64,000 bases of DNA, from contig NZ_JAALJI010000035.1 of the NCBI RefSeq assembly GCF_011064595.1, positions 1 to 64,000 of the forward strand, given 5' to 3'. Of the stretch, positions 16,893 through 62,222 are shown piece by piece. Positions within the stretch are counted from its first letter, which is position 1. Each line of letters starts with the position of its first letter. This stretch comes from Paludisphaera soli. Lineage in GTDB: Bacteria; Planctomycetota; Planctomycetia; Isosphaerales; Isosphaeraceae. A program made the position numbers and the translations under genes. The notes beneath the pieces were generated by a model. It worked only from the letters and a program-made list of their open reading frames with translations, did not search any database and was not told the DNA's origin.

Positions 16893-17610
16893 GCCCCTCG
16901 GGGACTATTGAAGCGGAATCCCGCGATCGCTCATCGAGGGGCCGACCAACTATTCCCCATTCCGCGAACGTGAGGCATCCTCTCCTCTGGGGCGTTGCGC
17001 GCCGAGCACGCCCCCCTCTTTGGCAATCCGCCGGTCGGTGATCGCAACGCGAGGCCGTGCCCGGGCCGATGCGCGTATCGGCATGAGGTGAAGCGCGCCG
17101 AACGAACCCAAATTCAGAGCCGGTCGCTCGGGGGGAAATCCCTTGCGGCGTCGAGACTTGGGTCCGATGGGTTCGTTTTCAGGCCGGCGCGGACGAAGCC
17201 AATTTCGCGGGACTGCGGTCAGGTTCGACGCAAGGTCGTCGGTCGATGTGGACGAACCCTGGGGACTTCCGAATGAGGAGATGGGCCGGATGAGGATTCG
17301 AGATCGGGCGAAGATTTCGGCGCGTCGTCTCGGGCGTTCCTCCGCGCGCGAGGGCGACGGCGTGCCCGCCCGATTCTCCGGGCGGCCTCCGTGTTCATCT
17401 CCCCCCCATCCGGCCCTGCGGGCCACCTTCCCCCACCGGGGGGGAAGGGAAGACGAGCGAGGACGTCCGAACCCGGGCCGAGGCCGCCGGGGGCTGGGGT
17501 CGGCGGCCGGGGCGCGTTAGAGTCGCGGCTTGAGGCGGCCGACGGCCGGGGCCCCGCATGGGAAGGGGCGCGGGGCCGGGAAGGGCCGAGACCCGAAGGA
17601 GTCCTCTCCG
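16893..17610. other. Long intergenic region with an inverted repeat and one REP-like unit
   Basis: No convincing gene. A perfect 10-bp inverted repeat (AACGAACCCA at 17101-17110, TGGGTTCGTT at 17168-17177) encloses 57 bases. One REP-like unit lies at 17399-17457: GGCCC-TGC-GGGCC, then CTTCCCCC-ACC-GGGGGGGAAG. The rest is ordinary GC-rich sequence. The ribosome binding site GAAGGAG of the next gene is at 17595-17601. Confidence 0.5.
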
Positions 17611-21113: not shown

Positions 21114-21485
21114 TCTTCCCTCCCCCCCGGCGGGGGAAGGTGGCCCGAAGGGCCGGATGAGGGGGAGGACGAGCACGGAATCCCGCCGGAGAAACCGGCG
21201 GGTCGGCCGTCGCGAATCGTCCTTCTCACCTCGTGGGAGAAGGTGAAAGGCCGGACGAGGGGGGCGTTTCGGAACGCCGTCGCTCACTCGTCTCGCCCGC
21301 CTGCATGGTCCCCCTCATCGACCGCTTCGCGGGCCTTCCCCCACCAGGGGGGAAGGGAAGACGAGCGAGGCACCGGCTGAACAGCAGCCGGGCGTGGACG
21401 CCGTCGCGTCCTCGCGCCGTCCGGCTTGATGGTCCCCCTCATCCGGCCTTGACGTCTCCTCTTCACCCACCGGGGGGAATGGGAG
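21114..21485. repeat. Cluster of four REP-like palindromic units
   Basis: Units lie at about 21114-21176 (reverse), 21221-21264 (reverse, shorter), 21306-21370 (forward) and 21427-21485 (forward, degenerate). The forward consensus is CCCCCTCATCCGGCC, a short C/G hairpin, then CTTCCCCC-ACCA-GGGGGGAAGGGAAGACGAG. Conserved joining segments (GACGAGCACGGA with a CCGGAGAAACCGGCGG hairpin; GCTTGATGGTCCCCCTCAT) recur in the cluster at 56255. The block fills the gap between 21100 and 21533 and may also terminate transcription. Confidence 0.85.
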
Positions 21486-29586: not shown

Positions 29587-29850
29587 CCTCCCCCCTTCTC
29601 CCCTTGAGGGAGAAGGTGCCCCGCAGGGGCGGATGAGGGGTGGACGCAGCCGAGGCCCGTGGGTCTCGGCCGCGGCATCCTGCAGGCTCTCGGCCGGTCG
29701 ACCCCTCATCCGGCCGTCCCGGCCACCTTCTCCCTCAAGTGGAGAAGGGAGGACGCGCACGCCGACGCTTCTTCGCGCCATACCCCTGGATGATCCCCCT
29801 CATCCGGCCCTTCGGGCTACCTTCCCCCGCCAGGGGGGAAGGGAAGAGAC
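29587..29850. repeat. Three REP-like palindromic units between metY and metX
   Basis: Units lie at 29587-29640 (reverse: CCTTCTCCCCTTGAGGGAGAAGG, then CGGATGAGGGG), 29701-29755 (forward: CCCTCATCCGGCCGTCCCGG, then CTTCTCCCTCAAGTGGAGAAGG) and 29791-29850 (forward: CCCTCATCCGGCCCTTCGGG, then a C5/G6 hairpin). The first two form an inverted pair. Two stem types occur, a C/G-run type and a TCTCC/GGAGA type. They lie between two genes of one pathway and may modulate metX expression. Confidence 0.8.
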
Positions 29851-52555: not shown

Positions 52556-53065
52556 TCAGCCGATCTGATCCGACGAGTAGATGGCGGCGTGGCGGCCGTA
52601 GATGTCGGCGTCGGAGAAGTAGTGGCCGGAGGACTTGCGGATGGCGGCCTCGCCGTTGAAGACCTTGGAGCTCAGGTAGCTGATCGCCGTCGAACGGATG
52701 TCCGAGTACAGCTGGCGCGACTCCGCGGGCGAGTAGAACTGCAACGAGCCGTTGACGTAGTCGATCAGGCCGTCCTGGCGGGCGTACGGCAGTCGGCCGA
52801 GCTGCGCGCCCAGCTGCCGGCCGAGGTTGTCGTAATTCCGCTGGACCCCCTGGGTGCGGCCGAACTGCTGCGTGGCCCGGTGGATGTTCACCAGGACGTC
52901 ATGGTACGTCCGCGTGGTCAGGATCGCCGACTTGGGGACGAACCTCTGCTCGCCGCCGGGGAGGTTGACGACGATGCCGGCCGCGGCGCGCGAGCCGTTC
53001 AGGACGATGCGGTCTTCCAGGCGGCCGTCGAGGGAAGGGACGAAACCGTGCTTCTTCGTCTTCAT
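52556..53065 (-). CDS. LEDR-motif protein, copy 1
   Basis: A protein of 169 residues from MKTKKHGFVPSLDGRLEDRI; the frame is open to 53278 but the extension looks non-coding. The N-terminal SLDGRLEDRIVLNGSRAAAG resembles the LExR-x-x-L motif at the N-terminus of many planctomycete surface and extracellular proteins. The rest is helical, with RATQQFGRTQGVQRNYDNLG, QLGRLPYARQDGLIDYVNGS and AAIRKSSGHYFSDADIYGRH. It is about 85% identical to the protein at 53452. No known enzymatic domain. Location and function are inferred only from the motif. Confidence 0.75.
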   Translation of the reverse strand: MKTKKHGFVPSLDGRLEDRIVLNGSRAAAGIVVNLPGGEQRFVPKSAILTTRTYHDVLVNIHRATQQFGRTQGVQRNYDNLGRQLGAQLGRLPYARQDGLIDYVNGSLQFYSPAESRQLYSDIRSTAISYLSSKVFNGEAAIRKSSGHYFSDADIYGRHAAIYSSDQIG

Positions 53066-53451
53066 TTCGCGTGTCTCCCGATGTCGAACAAGGTTAAAGC
53101 GGAGGGGGGCGGCGAACCTTCGGGCCAGGCGGTGTTCAGGCCGATTCCGCGTTTTTGAAGGCGAAACGCAGCCCTCTGCCGTCGGCATCGCTTCGCAGGC
53201 CCTCCCAGTGTGAACAGGCTGCACTCGGTCAGGATAACGCGGTTGGGACGATAAAATTACAAAGAATTCCGAAAGCACGGACGTTTTAAGTCGAATTGTT
53301 TCGTTTTCAGTGTGGCGAGAGAGGCCGAAATCGTACGCGAGTGGCGGGATGTACGGCCTCGCCCGCGCGGGTCGGCGAGATCGGTCGGCGCGCGGAACGA
53401 GACCGGGGGTCAGCCCGGTCTCGTCGCGTTCGGCCGGCGTGGGCGGGGAGG
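53066..53451. other. Intergenic region between the two LEDR paralogues
   Basis: No gene is supported in this gap. The stretch 53230-53310 is unusually AT-rich (GACGATAAAATTACAAAGAA, GTTTTAAGTCGAATTGTTTC) and should contain the promoter of copy 1 on the minus strand, leaving a leader of about 180 bases. The part nearest 53451 carries a GC-rich stretch that could end copy 2 transcription. Confidence 0.4.
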
Positions 53452-53955
53452 TCAGATGGGCTGCATGTCCGTGAAGATGGCGGCGTTGCGGCCGTAGATG
53501 TCCGCGTCGGAGAAGTAGTGGCCGGGGGACTTGCGGATGGCGGCCTCGCCGTTGAGCACCTTGAAGCTCAGGTAGCTGATCGTCGTCGAACGGATGTCCG
53601 AGTAGAGCTGCTGGTTCTCGTTCGGGGCGTAGAACTGCAGCGAGCCGTTGACGTAGTCGATCAGGCCGTCCTGGCGGGCGTACGGCAGGCGGCCGAGCTG
53701 CGCGCCGAGCTGGCGGCCGAGGTTGTCGAAGTCCTGCTGGACGCCCTGGGTGCGGCCGAACTGTTGGGTGGCCCGGTGGATGTTCACCAGGATGTTGTTA
53801 TACGTCCGGGTGGTGAGGATCCCGGACCTCGGGACGAACGTCTGCTCGCCGCCGGGGAGGTTGACGACGATGCCGGCCGCGGCGCGCGAGCCGTTCAGGA
53901 CGATGCGGTCTTCCAGGCGGCCGTCCAGCGACGGGACAAACGAGTTCTTCTTCAT
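53452..53955 (-). CDS. LEDR-motif protein, copy 2
   Basis: A protein of 167 residues starting MKKNSFVPSLDGRLEDRIVL with AGGAGCC upstream. It is a tandem paralogue of the protein ending at 52556, sharing the N-terminal LEDR motif, VNLPGGEQ(R/T)FVP, LTTRTY, GRTQGVQ, YVNGSLQFY and the C-terminal HYFSDADIYGR. The copies differ mainly at the extreme C-terminus (FTDMQPI versus YSSDQIG) and in scattered surface residues. High conservation with a few clustered changes suggests fairly recent duplication. Confidence 0.75.
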   Translation of the reverse strand: MKKNSFVPSLDGRLEDRIVLNGSRAAAGIVVNLPGGEQTFVPRSGILTTRTYNNILVNIHRATQQFGRTQGVQQDFDNLGRQLGAQLGRLPYARQDGLIDYVNGSLQFYAPNENQQLYSDIRSTTISYLSFKVLNGEAAIRKSPGHYFSDADIYGRNAAIFTDMQPI

Positions 53956-54407: not shown

Positions 54408-56240
54408 TTGTTGGAATATTCCACCTGGTCGCGCCGGGTCGTCGACCTGGCCGGGGCGCTCTCGCGGCTGGAGGCCGAGGCCGAGGCCGCGGGGATCGCG
54501 CCGCAGGTCACGGCCGCCTGGCACGCGAACCTGCATCAGAAGCTCGTGCCCCAGGCGGTCGACGCCCCCTACCTGATCGTCGCCGTGGCCGGCGGGGCGA
54601 ACATGGGCAAGAGCACGATGTTCAACCACCTGGTGGGCTTCCCCGCCAGCCGGGTCCACCACAACGCGGCCGAGACCAAGCACCCGGTCTGCATGCTGCC
54701 TCGGGGCTTCACCGACCGTCACGACCTGGCCAAGGTCTTCCCCGGCTTCACGCTCCAGCCCTGGAAGTCCGAGGACGACGCCGTCGCCGAGGGCCATCCC
54801 GACGGCCTGGTCTACCGCGAAGACCCCACCGGCTCGCAGCCCGAGAACCTCGTGTTGCTGGACACGCCCGACGTCGACGCGGCGCTTCCCAACAACTGGA
54901 AGCTCGCCGAGGCGATCACCCACGCGGCCGACGTCCTGATCGCGCTGTTGACCCAGCAGAAGTACAACGACGAGAAGATCCGCCGCTTCTTCCGGATCGC
55001 CGCCGAGGCCGACAAGGCGGTCCTCGCCGTCGTCAACCTGATCGACTGGCCCGACGACCGCGACCATTGCCGAGGGTGGCTGGACACCTTCCGCAAGGGG
55101 ACCGGGGCCGAGCCCCTGCACGCCTACGCCGTCCCCCGCGACCGCGCCGCGGTCCGCGACAACCGGCTGACGTTCCACCCCCTCTCCCCCCGCGCCACCG
55201 ACCCGCGGAAGGACCTGGCGGAGCTGCAGTTCGCCGAGATCAAGATCCGGTCGCTCCGGGGCTCGCTCCGCCAGGCGCTCGACCCCGACGAGGGGATCCC
55301 CGCGTACCTCCGCGACCTGGAGAAGCGGGCCGACGACAACCGCCAGGCCCGCGCCGTGATCCACCAGAAGGTGCAGGTCAAGATCGACCTCCCCCGGCCG
55401 CCGGGCCACATCGTCGGCGACGAGATCTGGCGCTGGCTGGAACCCCGCCGGACCTGGTTCGACCGCAAGGTCCACGGCGCCTATGGCGCGCTCGGGCGGA
55501 CCGTCGCGAAGTGGCTCCCCGGCAGCGTCGAGCCCGCCGAGGACGAGGCGCGGTTCCTCGCCGAGGAGAAGACCCAGCTCAACAAGGCGCTGGAGGCCGT
55601 CTACCACGACCTGGAGCAGGTCCACCGCGTCGGCTCCCCGGCGCTCCGGCAGGAGCTGCAGCCCCTGATCGCCGGCGACCAGCGGCGGCGGGCCTTCGAG
55701 GAACTCCAGCGCCGGCTGGCCGCCGCGCCGCTGGCGACCGAGGCCTACCGCCGGGCCATCGCGACCCGGCTGGAGGCGTTCGAGGCCGAACATCCGACGA
55801 TGATGCGCGCGATCGAGTGGGGCCTGGTGGCGACGGCCATCGCGCGGCCGGCGGTGACGATCGGCATGTTCGGCGCGGCCGACATGGCGGCGGGCCCGCT
55901 GTTCGACGCCGGCGGCCACGCGATCGGCCAGGTCTTCTTCGACGTCGCGGCCGGCTCCGCCCTGACCGCCGGCGGCGAGGGGGCCTTCGCCCGGATCAGC
56001 GGCCCCGCCCGCGCCCTGATCGGCGACCTCTTCGCCGCCTTCTACCGCGAGCGCGCCGAGCTGCTCGCCAAGGTCATCGACGACTGCGTCGTCGGCCGCC
56101 ACCTCGACCGCATCGAACGCCTCGCCGACCTCGGCCAGGGCCAGGACTTCCAGACCGCCTACAAGCTCGCCGCCGAACTCTCCCGCGAGCTGGCCGCCCT
56201 GGACGAGCCGGCCCTGGAAGCGGCGGCCGCCGAGGGCTGA
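54408..56240 (+). CDS. Dynamin-like/large GTPase, member 1 of a pair
   Basis: About 610 residues from a TTG start (LLEYSTWSRRVVDLAGAL) with GGGGGAG 10 bases upstream; the frame is open to 54300. GTPase motifs: Walker A GGANMGKST (~62-70), switch Thr in AAETKHPVCML, G3 LLDTPDVDA, and a G4-like VNLIDWPDD. A long helical region follows (~260-600) with LEKRADDNRQARAVIHQKVQ, FLAEEKTQLNKALEAVYHDL and a hydrophobic stretch (LVATAIARPAVTIGMFGAAD) able to dip into membrane. It is followed after a REP-like pair by a second large GTPase. Bacterial dynamin-like proteins usually act in such pairs on membranes. Confidence 0.8.
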   Translation: MLEYSTWSRRVVDLAGALSRLEAEAEAAGIAPQVTAAWHANLHQKLVPQAVDAPYLIVAVAGGANMGKSTMFNHLVGFPASRVHHNAAETKHPVCMLPRGFTDRHDLAKVFPGFTLQPWKSEDDAVAEGHPDGLVYREDPTGSQPENLVLLDTPDVDAALPNNWKLAEAITHAADVLIALLTQQKYNDEKIRRFFRIAAEADKAVLAVVNLIDWPDDRDHCRGWLDTFRKGTGAEPLHAYAVPRDRAAVRDNRLTFHPLSPRATDPRKDLAELQFAEIKIRSLRGSLRQALDPDEGIPAYLRDLEKRADDNRQARAVIHQKVQVKIDLPRPPGHIVGDEIWRWLEPRRTWFDRKVHGAYGALGRTVAKWLPGSVEPAEDEARFLAEEKTQLNKALEAVYHDLEQVHRVGSPALRQELQPLIAGDQRRRAFEELQRRLAAAPLATEAYRRAIATRLEAFEAEHPTMMRAIEWGLVATAIARPAVTIGMFGAADMAAGPLFDAGGHAIGQVFFDVAAGSALTAGGEGAFARISGPARALIGDLFAAFYRERAELLAKVIDDCVVGRHLDRIERLADLGQGQDFQTAYKLAAELSRELAALDEPALEAAAAEG

Positions 56241-56254
56241 TCGAACTTTGAAAG

Positions 56255-56430
56255 CCTTCCCCCCTGGTGGGGGAAGGTGGCCGAAGGCCGGATGAGGGGG
56301 AAGACGAGCACGGAGACCGTCCGGAGAAACAGGCGAGCCGGCAAGGCGTCGCTTCCTCGCGTCGTCTGCCTTGATGGTCCCCCTCATCCGCCCCTCCGGG
56401 GCACCTTCCCCCACCAGGGGGGAAGGGAGA
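56255..56430. repeat. Inverted pair of REP-like units between the two GTPase genes
   Basis: The reverse unit is 56255-56311 (CCTTCCCCCCTGGTGGGGGAAGG, then CCGAAGGCCGGATGAGGG). The forward unit is 56373-56430 (CCCTCATCCGCCCCTCCGG, then CTTCCCCCACCAGGGGGGAAGG). The joining segment (GACGAGCACGGAGACC, CCGGAGAAACAGGCG, CCTTGATGGTCCCCCTCAT) matches the joining segments in the 21.1-21.5 kb cluster, so the pair plus centre behaves as one composite element. Confidence 0.85.
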
Positions 56431-56470
56431 AATTGAAGAACCGCATCGACCGCAACGAGGACCGACCGCG

Positions 56471-58363
56471 ATGGCCGAGCGATTCACCAAGGCCGACTGG
56501 GAGCGCGAGCACCTGCTCGCCGGCTTCGACCGCCTGCACGACCGGCTGCGGGCCTGGGCGAAGTCCGCGCCGGCGTGGCCTCCGTACGACGAGGCGAAAG
56601 GGCTCGTGGAGCGGCTCGACCCCCGCCTGCGCGTCCCCGAGATCGACCTCGACCGCGCCCTCGTGGTCGGCTTCCTCGGCGGCTCGGGGACGGGCAAGAG
56701 CACGCTGTTCAACGCGCTGCTGGGCCGTCGGGTCAGCCGCGCGGGGAAGGAGTTCCGGCCGATGACCCGGCGCGCCGTGGTGGCCTGCCACCCGGACGTC
56801 GACCCGGCGTTCCTCGGCCTCGACGAGGACGCGCTGGAGATCCATCGCCTGAACATCCCCCTGCTCGAACAGATGATCCTGATCGACTGCCCCGACCCGG
56901 ACACCCAGGACCCCGAGGACGGCGAGGGGGGCGGCCGGCACCTGGACATCCTGCGCTCCGTGCTGCCCCACTGCGACGTGATGGTCCACACGGTGACCTC
57001 GCAGAAGTACAAGTCGCACGTCGTCGGCCAGGAGGTGCGCCGGAACGCGCCGGGGCGTCAGATCCTGTTCGTGCAGACGCACGCCAGCATCGACCACGAC
57101 AACCGGCCCGACCTCCGCCGCTATCTCGACACGCTGGGCCTGAGGGTCCCGGAGATCTACCGGCTGGACGCCGCCGAGGCCCAGGCGAAGCAGGACGCCG
57201 GCCAGCCCGTCGACGCCGAGTTCGCCAGGTTCCGCGACCTGCTGGAGCACGAGCTGGCCAGCCGCGCCCGCCACCGGATCCGCCGCGCCAACCTGCTGGG
57301 CCTCTACGGCTGGCTCCTCTCCGCGATCCGGGGGCCCGTCGACGCCGGACTGGAGGCCGTGGCGAAGCTGGAGGGGGCGCTCGACCAGGAGCGGGCCCGG
57401 ATGGCCGCCAAGATCGCCGCCAAGATGTCCGAGCGGATCGACGCCAACCGCCGGCTCTGGCGCTCGCGGGTGCTCCGGCAGCTCAACCAGACCTGGGGCG
57501 CCGGGCCGCTCGCGTTCCTCATCGGCCTCTGGTCGGCGACCGGCAGCCTGCTCCGCTCGTTGATCCTGCTCCGCGCGCGGACCCCCACGCAGGCGATCCT
57601 CGCCGGCGGTTGGACGGCCGTCTCGCTCGTGGGCGAGAAGTGGCGCGAGAGCCGCGCCGCCGCCGCGCTCACCGCCGAGGCCGACCTGGGCCTGACCGAA
57701 GGCGACCTCGCCCACGCGCGGACGATCCTGCAGGGCTACCTGAACGACGCCCAGATCCGCCCCTCGCCGAGCGACGACGGCGGCGACTTCTCGGCCGAGC
57801 AGCTCGCCACGGTGGCCGTCGAGGTCTACCGCCGGCTCGACGCCGAGATCAACGAGGTCGTCGAGAAGCGCGTCGCCCGCCGCGCCGGGCGGGGCGTCCA
57901 CGTCGTGTTCGAGGCCCTGTTCGCCCTGCTGCCGGCCTGGCTCGTCCTGCACATGGCCAAGAACTTCTTCTATGACCACATGATCCAGGGCGAATCGCTC
58001 CTGGGCCTGGACTTCGTCTTCCAGGCGGCCTTCTGGTGCCTGCTCTGGGGCGTCGCCGTGGGCGGCCTGCTGCTGAGCCGCCTGAATCGCGGGCTCGACC
58101 ATGACTTGAAGGCCGTCGTCGACCGCCTGGCGCACGCCCCCCTGCTCGACGCCCTCTGCCGCGACGCAAGCGACGCCTGCCTCGCCGTCCGCACCCACTC
58201 CGAGGCCCTCGCCGCCCTCGAGCGCGACCTCGCCGACCTCGAACGCCGCGTCGGCGGCGTCCTCGACCTCGGCCTGGGCGCCTTGCGGGTCGAGTCTCCC
58301 CCCGAACTCGCGGCCCCCGCGGCAAACCCGATCCCGGCGAAGACGCCCATCGCGGCGGGGTGA
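56471..58363 (+). CDS. Dynamin-like/large GTPase with C-terminal membrane helices, member 2 of a pair
   Basis: A protein of 630 residues. GTPase motifs: Walker A GGSGTGKST (~70-78), RRAVVACHPDVD in the switch I region, G3 LIDCPDPDT (~137-145), and FVQTHASIDHD near G4. Extended helices follow (LEGALDQERARMAAKIAAKM, SERIDANRRLWRSRVLRQLN), then two strong hydrophobic helices near the C-terminus (EALFALLPAWLVLHMAKNFF; FWCLLWGVAVGGLLLSRL) that would anchor it in the membrane. With the preceding gene it forms a tandem GTPase pair, as in bacterial dynamin-like systems that remodel or protect membranes. The REP-like element between them leaves 230 bases, so co-transcription is likely but not certain. 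Confidence 0.82.
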   Translation: MAERFTKADWEREHLLAGFDRLHDRLRAWAKSAPAWPPYDEAKGLVERLDPRLRVPEIDLDRALVVGFLGGSGTGKSTLFNALLGRRVSRAGKEFRPMTRRAVVACHPDVDPAFLGLDEDALEIHRLNIPLLEQMILIDCPDPDTQDPEDGEGGGRHLDILRSVLPHCDVMVHTVTSQKYKSHVVGQEVRRNAPGRQILFVQTHASIDHDNRPDLRRYLDTLGLRVPEIYRLDAAEAQAKQDAGQPVDAEFARFRDLLEHELASRARHRIRRANLLGLYGWLLSAIRGPVDAGLEAVAKLEGALDQERARMAAKIAAKMSERIDANRRLWRSRVLRQLNQTWGAGPLAFLIGLWSATGSLLRSLILLRARTPTQAILAGGWTAVSLVGEKWRESRAAAALTAEADLGLTEGDLAHARTILQGYLNDAQIRPSPSDDGGDFSAEQLATVAVEVYRRLDAEINEVVEKRVARRAGRGVHVVFEALFALLPAWLVLHMAKNFFYDHMIQGESLLGLDFVFQAAFWCLLWGVAVGGLLLSRLNRGLDHDLKAVVDRLAHAPLLDALCRDASDACLAVRTHSEALAALERDLADLERRVGGVLDLGLGALRVESPPELAAPAANPIPAKTPIAAG

Positions 58364-58675: not shown

Positions 58676-60619
58676 ATGGGATGGCGTGCCGGCTTGCTGA
58701 TCCTGGTCGCGTCCTCGTCCTTCGGGATCGCCGGATGCCAGGGCGTCTCGATCCGGAGGGTGGGCGGGTCGCCTTCCCTCTCGTCGACGGGCCGCATCGA
58801 GCGGATCGGCCGATGGGCGGCTCGCCAGAAGGTTGAACCGGGCACGCCGCCCCCGCTGCGAGGGGCCTCCCCCGGGCCCGACGCCGGCGAGCCCTCCGAC
58901 CCCGGCTCCCTGCTCGCCCGCGCCGAGCGGAGCTACCGCGCCGGCCTCCAGGCAAGGCGCGAATCGAGCGAGATGAACGCCCGCTATCAGGTCGACGCCC
59001 TGCACGACGCCACGGCCGCCATCCAGGGCATGCTCGCCGAAGCCGGCGGAGAGGCGGACCCGGATCTCCCCAAGGCCCGGGCCCTGCACAGCTCCGCGCA
59101 GGGGGAATTCCTGCGGACCACGAGCGGCCGATCGGTCAAGCTCGACGAGAAATGGCGCGCGGGGCTGGAGCAGAAGGGGATCCGCCTGACGATCGCGCGG
59201 GAGTCGGAATTCCTCGCGCCCGAGTCGTTCGACCGCTTCTTCTTCGACGATGATTTCGCCGTCAGGAACCTCGACGACGAGCACAAGACGGAAGGCGTCG
59301 GCGTGCCGCTGATCGCCCTCCGCAAGTTCGACCTGAGGGCCCTCGACCGCCGCGAGGGGGAGGAGAAGTTCCTCATGCCCCGCCAGGTCTACCCGATGAC
59401 CGCCGTGCTGAAGCCCGAGCCCACCGCCCCGGGCGAGCCGTACAACCTCCGGCTGGAGCTGCACGACCCGCTCGTCGAGCGCACCGTGGACCTGAACGGC
59501 CCGGCGGAGCCGCTGGCCGCGGACCTCACCACGCCGCTCGTGTATCACTTCGTCCAGAGCCCGCTGCCGATCCTCCAGGAGATCGGCCTGCTCGACCCGC
59601 AATGGCTGGAGAAGGTGGCCGGCCTCTACATGCTGCACCCCTACGAGCCGGGCAAGATCCCGGTCGTGCTGGTGCACGGGCTCCGCTCCAGCCCCGCGGC
59701 CTGGATGCACGTGATCAACGCCCTGCGCGGCGACCCGGAGCTCCGGGAACGCTACCAGGTCTGGCTCTTCATGTACCCCACCGGCACGCCCTTCCCCGCC
59801 TCCGCGGCGAAACTCCGCAAGGGGCTGGACGAACTCCGCGAGGTCGTCGACCCCGATCACAGGGACGCCGCGTTCGACCGGGCCGTGCTGATCGGGCACA
59901 GCATGGGCGGGCTGATCTCCAAGATGATGATCGAACAGAGCGGCGACGCGATCTGGAAGCTGGTCGGTCGTCGGCCGTTCGAGGAACTCAAGGCCGAGCC
60001 CGAGCACAAGGAGATGATGCGGCGGGTGTTCTTCTTCGAGCCGCACCCCTCGATCGCCCGCGTCGTCTTCATCGCCACCCCGCACCGGGGCAGCGACCTG
60101 GGCGACCAGTTCATCGGCCGCCTCACCGACCGTTTGATCCGGCTGCCGATCCCCATGCGGCTGCTCTACCGGAAGCTGATCGCCCAGAACGACGAGGACT
60201 TCTTCACGCCCGAGATCCGCGAAGGGGGCCTCCCCTCCAGCATCGACGAACTCCGGACCGACAACCGCCTGCTCCGGACCCTGGCGGATCTGCCGCGCAA
60301 GCCCGTCCCGGTCCACTCCATCATCGGCCAGAAGGACCCGAACCTGCCGATCGAGCTGGGCAGCGACGGCGTCGTCCCCTACACCAGCTCGCACCTCGAC
60401 TGGGCCTCGTCCGAACTGGTCGTCGACGGCGACCACGGCTGCCAGGACGAGGTGGAAACGCTCCGCGAGCTGCGCCGAATCCTGCACCTCCACCTGGGGA
60501 AGACCTTACCGGTCGACGAACCCGACGAGGACGGGCCCGCGGGCTCCCCCGCCGACCGCCGCGACTCGAACCAGAGCTGGCCGGAGGCCCTCCGGTCCCT
60601 GAGGGACGAGCCCGAATAG
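58676..60619 (+). CDS. Lipoprotein alpha/beta hydrolase (lipase/esterase-like)
   Basis: A protein of 647 residues with GGGAG upstream. The N-terminus is a lipoprotein signal (MGWRAGLLILVASSSFGIAG then Cys21). A helical N-terminal region of ~300 residues and a beta region (QVYPMTAVLKPEP, YNLRLELHDPLVERTVDLNG) precede the hydrolase: IPVVLVHGLRSSPAAWMHVI (oxyanion loop), VWLFMYPTGTPFPASAAKLR, nucleophile elbow VLIGHSMGGLIS (~405), IATPHRGSDLGDQ, and DGDHGCQDE with the likely catalytic His. It probably hydrolyses an ester or lipid at the cell envelope. The long N-terminal domain is unusual. Confidence 0.87.
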   Translation: MGWRAGLLILVASSSFGIAGCQGVSIRRVGGSPSLSSTGRIERIGRWAARQKVEPGTPPPLRGASPGPDAGEPSDPGSLLARAERSYRAGLQARRESSEMNARYQVDALHDATAAIQGMLAEAGGEADPDLPKARALHSSAQGEFLRTTSGRSVKLDEKWRAGLEQKGIRLTIARESEFLAPESFDRFFFDDDFAVRNLDDEHKTEGVGVPLIALRKFDLRALDRREGEEKFLMPRQVYPMTAVLKPEPTAPGEPYNLRLELHDPLVERTVDLNGPAEPLAADLTTPLVYHFVQSPLPILQEIGLLDPQWLEKVAGLYMLHPYEPGKIPVVLVHGLRSSPAAWMHVINALRGDPELRERYQVWLFMYPTGTPFPASAAKLRKGLDELREVVDPDHRDAAFDRAVLIGHSMGGLISKMMIEQSGDAIWKLVGRRPFEELKAEPEHKEMMRRVFFFEPHPSIARVVFIATPHRGSDLGDQFIGRLTDRLIRLPIPMRLLYRKLIAQNDEDFFTPEIREGGLPSSIDELRTDNRLLRTLADLPRKPVPVHSIIGQKDPNLPIELGSDGVVPYTSSHLDWASSELVVDGDHGCQDEVETLRELRRILHLHLGKTLPVDEPDEDGPAGSPADRRDSNQSWPEALRSLRDEPE

Positions 60620-60825
60620 GACGGCCGGCTGAGGCGGACTCCGACGTCGACGTTGCGCTTGACTCGCATATCAGGTGGACCAGCCAATGGGGAGCAGGTC
60701 ACAGGGGTCAAGGCGGGCTGCCAGGACCTACCGCACCTCTCGGAAACACGATCCGGTCGATCGTAGGCGCAATTTCTCTTCCGAAGACGAAATTTGCTCT
60801 TGAATCAATAAAAACAGAAGCGCAC

Positions 60826-61203
60826 ATGATTGGCGGATTTTATGAAGCTCTTTTAGCTCTCAAGGTAATTCTCGACGGTCATGAAATACCCGATTTCGGA
60901 TGGGGGCACAACCCAACCGCTTCCGGCTTAGATATGGTCTCGATCAACAAAAATGGCACTGTGTTTATTTGGGATTCGAAAGGAACACGAGGAACATCAA
61001 AGCCTACGCAGTTCGACAGAGACAGCAAAAGACAGGCCTTAATGAAGGAGGCCGAAGGGTTGATCTCCAGAGCATCCAACCTTACCGAAGCAGTGAAGAT
61101 TAAAGCTATTGACAATCTAAGCAGGCAGAGAGTTCAATATAGGACTGCGTACGGCCATGCAGGTGCCGGTGGTTGGAAAATCGTGAGAGGTTATAATAAG
61201 TAA
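60826..61203 (+). CDS. Orphan toxin domain, nuclease-like (PD-(D/E)XK-type), 5' truncated
   Basis: At least 125 residues from ATG 60826 (MIGGFYEALLALKVILDGHE). The same frame carries similar low-GC coding sequence further upstream to about 60750 (LPKTKFALESIKTEAH) with no usable start codon, so the 5' end looks cut off from a larger protein. The key stretch is GLDMVSINKNGTVFIWDSKG: Asp, then 13 residues, then Asp-x-Lys, with an upstream helix Glu. This is the layout of restriction-endonuclease-fold toxin domains at the C-terminus of RHS and other polymorphic toxins. Base composition is far more AT-rich than the surroundings. A candidate immunity gene and an RHS scrap follow. Confidence 0.55.
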   Translation: MIGGFYEALLALKVILDGHEIPDFGWGHNPTASGLDMVSINKNGTVFIWDSKGTRGTSKPTQFDRDSKRQALMKEAEGLISRASNLTEAVKIKAIDNLSRQRVQYRTAYGHAGAGGWKIVRGYNK

Positions 61204-61409
61204 TTTACGAGGCTCAAGATGGATTCCAGGGTGATGGCCACTCGGAATCAGACGCAAGTCCAAGTGAGACACAATCTTAAGCGCTCGGGGGTTAGTGTTT
61301 CGCCACGAAGCCGCAAACCTCGATGCTCAGCCGAGTTACGGCAGAACTGCCAGGACATCACCCCGCAATCCATCTTGCGCCTACATACTTACTTCGAGGT
61401 CCAAACTAA
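61204..61409. other. Spacer between toxin domain and candidate immunity gene
   Basis: A gap of 206 bases, intermediate in GC. Short overlapping frames (61219-61413, 61295-61477) have no protein-like features. I see nothing recognisable in it. Confidence 0.3.
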
Positions 61410-62222
61410 ATGATGACACCAAAATCAGGCGATATTTCCAATATGCCAGAATCGAACAAAAAATCCATATATATTGAATCAGACCTCTTAGAAAGAGTCG
61501 CATTGCTTGGCAAGGTCCAATCGAAATGGGGTATCGACATCGAAGCTAAAGCCAAAAACTTGACTCCTCTCGGTATCAACATACTTGGTCATTCGATCGC
61601 ATGCTATCTGTCTTATCAGCCAATTAATGGCGAAATCCTATTGCTAAAATCAATAGAATATTTAGAACTAGCTCATGCTTCGTCCGAGAAACAAAAACAT
61701 CAATACACACCAGGATATTGTGAGTTTCTTAGAACCGCCCACCTATCATTGGCTCGCTGGCTTTCAACAGGCATGATTTCACAGGATCTCCTGCGAGAAT
61801 CCCAAGGCCACCTTACAGACTACGTCGAACTATTTATGCCTTCGTGGAAACCATTCTCGTTCGATCTTCCTGCTGCGTTATTCACCAAGTCATACGATGC
61901 CATCGCAAAAGTTTATTCTGACGGCAGTAAGCCAAGAGACAGATTTCCAGGGATACCTTACAAACACATGGCTCAAGCCGCAGAGACCGTCGCTAAACTT
62001 GATTCACAATCACGCTTTGCCTTAGAAGATATTTTCAAGAATTACATCAAAGGTTTCGACCTACTACAAATAATCCACAGTACAAACTACACTGCCATCG
62101 GATTTATATTTCGACTTCTTGGCCTCTGCAACACGAACCCTCCATCGCTTTCAGTCAGCAATTGTTGGAATATCATAACAGATCCTGACTTTGATAAGAT
62201 TCTTCCACCAAGCCGTTCTTGA
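61410..62222 (+). CDS. Candidate immunity protein of the orphan toxin cassette
   Basis: A protein of 270 residues (an internal ATG at 61443 is an alternative start; no strong ribosome binding site for either). It is soluble and mostly helical: SDLLERVALLGKVQSKWGID, INILGHSIACYLSYQPINGE, LLKSIEYLELAHASSEKQKH, FLRTAHLSLARWLSTGMISQ and KTDSQS-type turns. It has no signal peptide or catalytic motif and I do not recognise the family. It has the same AT-rich composition as the toxin domain just upstream and is absent from the GC-rich context on either side. Small helical proteins directly downstream of polymorphic-toxin domains are usually cognate immunity proteins; that role is inferred from position. 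Confidence 0.6.
   Translation: MMTPKSGDISNMPESNKKSIYIESDLLERVALLGKVQSKWGIDIEAKAKNLTPLGINILGHSIACYLSYQPINGEILLLKSIEYLELAHASSEKQKHQYTPGYCEFLRTAHLSLARWLSTGMISQDLLRESQGHLTDYVELFMPSWKPFSFDLPAALFTKSYDAIAKVYSDGSKPRDRFPGIPYKHMAQAAETVAKLDSQSRFALEDIFKNYIKGFDLLQIIHSTNYTAIGFIFRLLGLCNTNPPSLSVSNCWNIITDPDFDKILPPSRS

Follow-up and report, generated by a model that had tools for sequence, protein, structure and literature searches.

Genes A and B and their sequence relationships

We analysed a 64,000-nucleotide stretch of the Paludisphaera soli genome (contig NZ_JAALJI010000035.1, positions 1 to 64,000; the window), in which two genes, called A and B here, lie on one strand with a gap of 230 nt. A and B are probably the unequal partners in a dynamin-like machine that remodels bacterial membranes and has the architecture of BDLP and mitofusin; the predicted structures, the gene pairing and the phylogeny support this reading, and from them we infer the function. 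The two genes are:

54408..56240 (+): gene A, upstream partner, dynamin-like, 610 aa; start TTG at 54408 or TTG at 54411, stop at 56238-56240
56471..58363 (+): gene B, downstream partner, dynamin-like with a C-terminal membrane hairpin, 630 aa; start ATG at 56471, stop at 58361-58363

The alternative start of A, TTG 54411, is the codon after 54408 and agrees with the MEYSTW N-terminus of a relative. A preliminary description of this DNA had placed two open reading frames side by side here; both are present, with P-loop and G3 motifs. The two proteins are paralogous over the G domain (25% identity, 181 residues, E 8e-8). In their own genome (7.97 Mb) each was found once; broad profiles, with 29 candidates scored per profile, gave two extra places (C138 and C35), both confined to the P-loop region. 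Among the named loci, the nearest to protein A was 'Planctomycetales bacterium 71-10' (87%), followed by Aquisphaera insulae (63%), which points to a planctomycete of the Isosphaeraceae type.

To read motif conservation, we aligned 60 sequences for A and 50 for B, taken from the window and from named loci. The motif positions are:

54591..54614 (+): A, G1/Walker A, GGANMGKS, residues 62-69
54861..54878 (+): A, G3, DTPDVD, residues 152-157 (DTPD at 152-155)
55035..55046 (+): A, G4 position, NLID, residues 210-213; Asn in 60/60, Lys in 0/60, fourth-position Asp in 25/60
56678..56701 (+): B, G1/Walker A, GGSGTGKS, residues 70-77
56885..56902 (+): B, G3, DCPDPD, residues 139-144 (DCPD at 139-142)
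57077..57088 (+): B, G4 position, THAS, off T/NKxD, residues 203-206; then Asp 208 and Asp 210, each in 50/50

The Gly-Lys of G1, the Thr of G2 (A90 and B99) and the D-x-P-D of G3 were conserved in every row (60/60 for A and 50/50 for B, the window counted in).

Sequence alone is insufficient to name A and B. The sole Pfam family above its cut-off in either protein was MMR_HSR1, a generic GTPase family; searches of NCBIfam and of PDB sequences gave matches mainly over the P-loop region, and the PDB sequence searches found no sequence-level link of A or B to solved bacterial dynamins. With PADLOC, A matched nothing but LeoA (0.0035) at an E of 0.1 or better, and B matched Cas2 (0.0023), LeoA (0.018), and also mad3 and LeoBC. 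These matches are weak throughout and an identity as a defence system was rejected. So was a fused DynA of the B. subtilis type (NF052648, curated score 1600): A and B are separate genes, and NF052648 was unmatched at E up to 1.

Predicted structures and membrane segments

AlphaFold2 models were built from the 60- and 50-row alignments and had a mean pLDDT (predicted local distance difference test) of 85.8 for A and 83.7 for B. In Foldseek searches of the PDB, BDLP1 ranked first for both proteins (5.4e-9 for A, 8.2e-10 for B), and the top 29 chains for A and the top 41 for B belong to the dynamin superfamily; the superfamily members matched include BDLP1, IniA, Cj-DLP, Drp1, mitofusin, Fzo1, OPA1, Mx and EHD4. 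The best VIA structure alignments were to mitofusin and Fzo1, over the G domain and neck: A to Fzo1 (9kfd; Z 23.0, 320 residues, 5.5 Å, spanning residues 1-601) and B to MFN1 (5yew; Z 22.4, 310 residues, 3.9 Å, spanning residues 7-597). Where a non-dynamin chain matched the G domain alone, Z was about 13 (A) and 15-16 (B). The neck was assigned because the VIA alignments extend from the first helices through to the last. Both models thus contain a predicted dynamin-type G domain (G1, G2 Thr and G3) and a predicted neck bundle of N-terminal, post-G and C-terminal helices. The trunk and tip region of the whole models has long helices and, at the expected place, a hairpin (B) or a low-confidence hydrophobic stretch (A). 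The dynamin-like architecture and the long helical regions put forward in the preliminary description are both seen in the models.

An Era-like placement, the alternative named in that description, would make A and B ribosome-factor GTPases of the Era/Der type, unrelated to dynamins. The top sequence-family matches, MMR_HSR1 and Era/Der, do point that way, but they are confined to the G1 (P-loop) region, at 26.2 and 16.2 bits against an NCBIfam cut-off of 237. Dynamins came first in the fold searches, with Era at G-domain level; the best Era chain for A in Foldseek was 30th, after the 29 dynamin-superfamily chains. We rejected this placement as extremely improbable.

Transmembrane-like segments were called with a plain hydropathy cut-off. 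The features of the tip region are:

57893..57949 (+): B, first transmembrane-like helix, residues 475-493, in predicted helix 474-503
57998..58054 (+): B, second transmembrane-like helix, residues 510-528, in predicted helix 513-539
55842..55988 (+): A, low-confidence tip between two long helices, residues 479-527, pLDDT under 50

Among 50 members of the B family, 43 and 49 had over-cut-off segments at the two hairpin positions, and 44/50 had at least two segments; B has a third, weaker hydropathy peak at 349-367. The A of the window has no segment over the cut-off, and its tip (479-527) may be a putative membrane-binding paddle, peripheral or shallowly inserted. We also compared 28 distant pairs, from 26 planctomycete loci and two from Nonomuraea, with 27 proteins per side long enough to judge. 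All downstream partners (27/27) have a transmembrane-like segment, and 19 have two or more. On the upstream side 16 proteins have none, nine have one and two have two, so that 11/27 have at least one.

Pairing across genomes and age of the pair

We collected 80 named loci, 73 of which have at least 700 nt behind A and so have room for a partner. In 53 of these 73, A is followed by B on the same strand, with the frames touching or at most 200 nt apart save for two exceptions (2.6 kb and 0.6 kb). Together with the membrane segments of the distant pairs (27/27 downstream against 11/27 upstream), this bears out the unequal tandem pair of the preliminary description. In the remaining 20 genomes B was found elsewhere in all 20, in one as two pieces; three further matches cross one stop codon. 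In two genomes of genus g228 (G330 and G331; L179 and L180) the B profile match crosses one TGA, a frame break or a late stop. The window's genus spans several of these arrangements: B is beside A in G321, 2-3 kb off in G322, G323 and G325, and about 16 kb away on the opposite strand in G324.

Strong matches were defined as those above 300 bits, a threshold chosen in this analysis. By this measure A was present in 17/45 genomes of the window's order, B in 16/45 and both in 16/45; the odd genome (G306), with A and without B, has a contig edge on the B side. The co-occurrence over these 45 genomes has a Fisher p of 3e-11, kinship being ignored. In a sample of the phylum, at 40 bits, both genes were found in 49/294 genomes, A only in 3 and B only in 4; in one of the 49 (G211) a single gene matches both profiles. 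The two places are linked in 33 genomes, with A upstream in 33/33. In one 'B only' genome (G167) an A match was found by BLAST, and absences in the phylum sample are soft because at most four candidates were scored per genome.

Across the Planctomycetia, a broad B profile matched 287/397 genomes at E 1e-10. Fourteen of these matches are weak, with E above 1e-20; the window's family accounts for seven and another family of the same class (f3) for five. Family f3 had 0/3 genomes matched in the phylum sample and one strong plus five weak matches in the class sample. We considered whether weak profile matches in the Isosphaerales might be A or B, and rejected this for the places identified among five that were checked. 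Three (G321, L182; G323, L183; G302, L184) are tandem pairs of a GTPase-DUF697 family, a separate family, and G311 (L186) holds a different Dynamin_N pair, with frames of 671 and 409 aa and Dynamin_N well above its cut-off. Since the sampled ones belong to other families, weak matches in the order and class were not counted as A or B.

In the plasmid collection a single record matched, from Nonomuraea, and no Streptomyces record matched. The record, Nonomuraea gerenzanensis NZ_LT559118.1, holds two separate tandem pairs of dynamin-like protein (DLP) genes (L148 and L149); it is 11.85 Mb long, is labelled plasmid I in PLSDB and is probably a chromosome. Five records of metagenome-assembled genomes titled Candidatus Kuenenia stuttgartiensis (L072, L080, L084, L088 and L101) carry an A of the type found in Planctomycetaceae-titled records, and their names are probably wrong.

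A maximum-likelihood tree was computed from 66 G domains, comprising 31 upstream and 31 downstream planctomycete partners and four Nonomuraea proteins; L172 (upstream) and L163 and L171 (downstream) were left out of the alignments. One branch, with support 100/98, separates 33 upstream from 33 downstream partners, and the two Nonomuraea pairs divide along the same branch. The tree is unrooted and has some long branches; the midpoint used for drawing places five upstream rows (three planctomycete and two Nonomuraea) downstream of the root. Because the Nonomuraea pairs split as the planctomycete pairs do, the A/B duplication would predate the sampled lineages, or else the pair was transferred between phyla as a unit. 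A clean split held in common with an actinomycete points to an old hetero-pairing of these bacterial dynamins, not to repeated local duplication. The tree split, the phylum-wide co-occurrence and the presence of B in 20/20 split genomes support a deep conservation of the pair. A mirror-tree correlation of A and B distances (Pearson 0.97, 38 loci) was set aside and not used as evidence, because shared genome ancestry alone would yield a high value.

The pair is common yet dispensable in planctomycetes, and a function required by all of them is therefore less likely; likewise, its occurrence in an actinomycete argues against a role tied to planctomycete membranes. The preliminary description had linked the pair to the unusually invaginated membranes of planctomycetes, as a factor that shapes the invaginations of the cytoplasmic membrane. 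The fold is a membrane-active one and the phylum has a developed endomembrane system (PMC10632474), but strong B matches occur in 16/45 genomes of the window's order, family f3 scored 0/3 in the phylum sample (with one strong and five weak matches in the class sample), and homologous tandem pairs occur in Nonomuraea. We regard this link as improbable.

One further element lies between the two genes:

56255..56426: repeat element of 172 bp, with inverted ends of 28 nt, in the gap separating the genes; it is dispersed over the genome and does not belong to the pair

The element has 122 matches in the genome over both strands, with partial copies in the window at 17347-17448, 21118-21479 and 29594-29842, and resembles a repeat of the REPIN/MITE type that was inserted in the A-B gap. 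Two small paralogues (85% identity, 164 residues) are encoded at 52556-53278 and 53452-53955 (-); the one of the two that was searched had no confident Pfam match. The small paralogues and a DUF4838 gene near A were sought within loci of the window's family, and the paralogues also stand beside A in four relatives from the genus, as two copies in three and one in the fourth. From 60001 to 62000 the G+C content is 54%, against 71% before and 66% after, and the open reading frame at 61410-62222 was not found in those A/B-flanking stretches of relatives that were checked; the low-G+C stretch is possibly a recent insertion. Over the loci as a whole no neighbour is constant (the commonest cluster is in 27/60 loci). 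The neighbours scanned include ABC and OPT transporters and a metallo-beta-lactamase-fold protein, and four of nine had no Pfam match.

Possible function of the pair and comparison with known systems

Several results weigh against reading A and B as a dynamin-like pair. At the sequence level, Dynamin_N (PF00350) is under its cut-off in both (22.5 and 20.5 bits against 27). PDB profile searches gave mostly GTPases and ABC proteins (45 of 45 rows, and the best 60 of 132); among the matches listed, the dynamin superfamily was represented only weakly, by guanylate-binding proteins with A (E 0.03-0.24), while IRG proteins reached 0.0055 with B. In structure, the VIA alignments cover about half of each protein (G domain and neck), and their high Z values come from four entries per protein (5yew, 9kfd, 9kfe and 9kff); other mitofusin entries gave Z of 15.4-17.7 at 8-13 Å, which for B is plain G-domain level. 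Against solved dynamins the global scores from Foldseek do not exceed a TMq of 0.33, which is low; in comparisons of whole models, the trunk and paddle had no match of their own. The preliminary description had named a dynamin-type stalk and paddle as the structures to check; the G domain and neck were matched, and similarity to full dynamins was low. At least one over-cut-off hydropathy segment occurs somewhere in 46/60 aligned A proteins and near residue 488, in the tip, in 38/60. In the window's clade a strict [NT]KxD motif at G4 was found in 0/60 A and 0/50 B, neither window protein having it, and a profile search did not find the pair in many genomes of the window's own family.

The Dynamin_N shortfall was not taken as excluding, because it is a sequence cut-off and the Nonomuraea relatives from the same tree pass it in three cases out of four (30.6, 27.3 and 43.0; the fourth scored 26.9). 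Because many relatives of A carry a segment near 488, the membrane contrast between A and B is a matter of degree: the two C-terminal membrane helices that the preliminary description gave to the second protein only are there in B, but the sharp contrast with A is not. As G4 departs from T/NKxD, we class A and B as dynamin-fold proteins and not as proven GTPases.

The G4 position, whose register comes from sequence alignment alone, differs between the partners. In the window's clade the fourth-position Asp is present in 25/60 A (the window's A among them) and in 11/50 B; in the wider phylum set it is present in 27/31 downstream and 4/31 upstream partners, with strict [NT]KxD in 15/31 and 1/31. 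From these counts the downstream partner looks like the more ordinary GTP binder in most lineages of the wider set, and the B of the window's clade, with THAS, appears to have departed from the ordinary G4 as well. Judged on sequence, this asymmetry suggests a division of labour.

Because neither protein keeps a strict [NT]KxD, nucleotide recognition may be altered, either through the two Asp residues behind the G4 position of B, which are invariant, or through a lower specificity. A stronger form of this idea is that nucleotide use is not GTP-specific, with ATP bound (as in EHD) or with one partner a non-hydrolysing scaffold. EHD proteins use ATP. Some of the better matches in structure are EHD chains (2qpt, with a Z of 17.1 against B and of 16.1 against A), and two EHD4 entry titles among the matches mention an ATP analogue or ADP; the missing strict G4 motif and the 4/31 upstream against 27/31 downstream partners with Asp fit too. 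However, G1, G2 and G3 are intact in both proteins, the fourth-position Asp is kept in some members on each side, including the window's A, and Asp 208 and Asp 210, present in 50/50 B, could bind the base. We consider a non-GTP nucleotide possible but doubtful.

For the dynamin-like pair itself, the following mechanism can be proposed. By prediction, each protein has a dynamin-type G domain and a neck formed by the N-terminal helices, the post-G helix and the C-terminal helix; B carries a transmembrane hairpin at its tip and A a more weakly hydrophobic stretch at the corresponding place. Comparison suggests that an ancient duplication gave two genes that have since been retained together. A and B may form a hetero-oligomer at the cytoplasmic face of a membrane, with B anchoring it as an integral protein and A lying at the periphery or inserting shallowly, and nucleotide-driven pairing of G domains with hinge motions would then tether, fuse or cut the membrane.

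What such a machine would be used for is where readings diverge. The ftsZ gene has been lost from planctomycetes, and cell division in the Planctomycetia is asymmetric (PMC10632474). The pair might be an FtsZ-independent division factor that closes the membrane at the division site or bud neck, as DynA/DynB do with FtsZ. Streptomyces DynA/DynB stabilise sporulation Z-rings and DynB has two transmembrane segments (PMC8748795); the broad B profile is matched in 287/397 Planctomycetia genomes, and tandem pairs homologous to A and B, in the same order, occur in the actinomycete Nonomuraea. On the other side, many genomes, among them the majority in the window's order, yielded no such pair, so it is no universal division component of the phylum; the words 'dynamin' and 'GTPase' are absent from the main text of the Planctopirus essential-gene paper (PMC10632474). 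We treat a division role as attractive, but as an inference and rather unlikely; a role in stress or repair is at least as likely.

In that second role the pair would repair or tether damaged membrane and be dispensable in unstressed cells; repair or tethering has been proposed for B. subtilis DynA, IniA and Cj-DLP1/2. A function of use only under some conditions would fit the patchy distribution, in which the two genes are missing together; in vitro, IniA cuts membranes (PMC6715688), and Cj-DLP1/2 have been proposed to tether and repair membrane (PMC6104087). The neighbourhood argues the other way, with no constant neighbour (27/60 loci at most) and the identified ones being transporters and a metallo-beta-lactamase-fold protein. 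We hold this reading tentatively, as a credible possibility. More speculative, and in our view quite improbable, is a combination in which the pair became the membrane-closing step of budding in FtsZ-less planctomycetes, with both partners off the guanine motif and either another nucleotide in use or one catalytic and one structural subunit. Whichever use applies, the pair is a concrete, deletable candidate for membrane cutting or joining in planctomycetes without FtsZ.

A and B belong to a known kind, the bacterial dynamin-like pair; for their clade itself we found no description among the titles and abstract openings of the open-licence literature, where no paper treating a planctomycete dynamin was found either. 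The part of PMC4164004 drawn on holds nothing on planctomycete dynamins, and the word 'dynamin' is absent from 300,000 of the 769,434 characters of PMC7203096. Among bacteria, the majority of DLP genes lie in operons as pairs (PMC6104087). BDLP1 of Nostoc and Cj-DLP1/2 of Campylobacter, like A and B as predicted, combine a G domain of large size with a neck of helices drawn from the two ends of the chain and with a membrane region at the tip, and BDLP1 was the first Foldseek match for each protein. Cj-DLP1/2 are encoded by adjoining genes and form a hetero-tetramer (PMC6104087); A and B likewise adjoin and may form a hetero-oligomer. They differ from BDLP1 and Cj-DLP in having 10-13% identity in structure alignments, no sequence-level match in the PDB and a non-canonical G4.

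Mitofusin and Fzo1 gave the best VIA alignments of G domain and neck for both proteins (Z 22-23); they differ in being eukaryotic, with matched chains that are truncated constructs and identities of 13-16%. LeoABC of enterotoxigenic Escherichia coli is encoded by paired DLP genes, and LeoA is the single PADLOC match of A noted above. IniA was among the top Foldseek matches. The mycobacterial IniA/IniC genes are paired DLP genes, as A and B are, and IniA has a loop in place of the trunk and paddle helices of BDLP (PMC6715688). No full-length sequence similarity of A or B to IniA/IniC or LeoABC was shown. Streptomyces DynA and DynB are two unlike DLPs, one with two transmembrane segments (PMC8748795). 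They are marked by binding to SepX/SsgB/SepF2 and the Z-ring; they work with FtsZ, whereas planctomycetes are without it (PMC10632474). A and B resemble them in architecture, with tandem genes and one partner with two transmembrane-like segments, and the tandem pairs of Nonomuraea, an actinomycete as Streptomyces is, fall on the matching sides of the tree.

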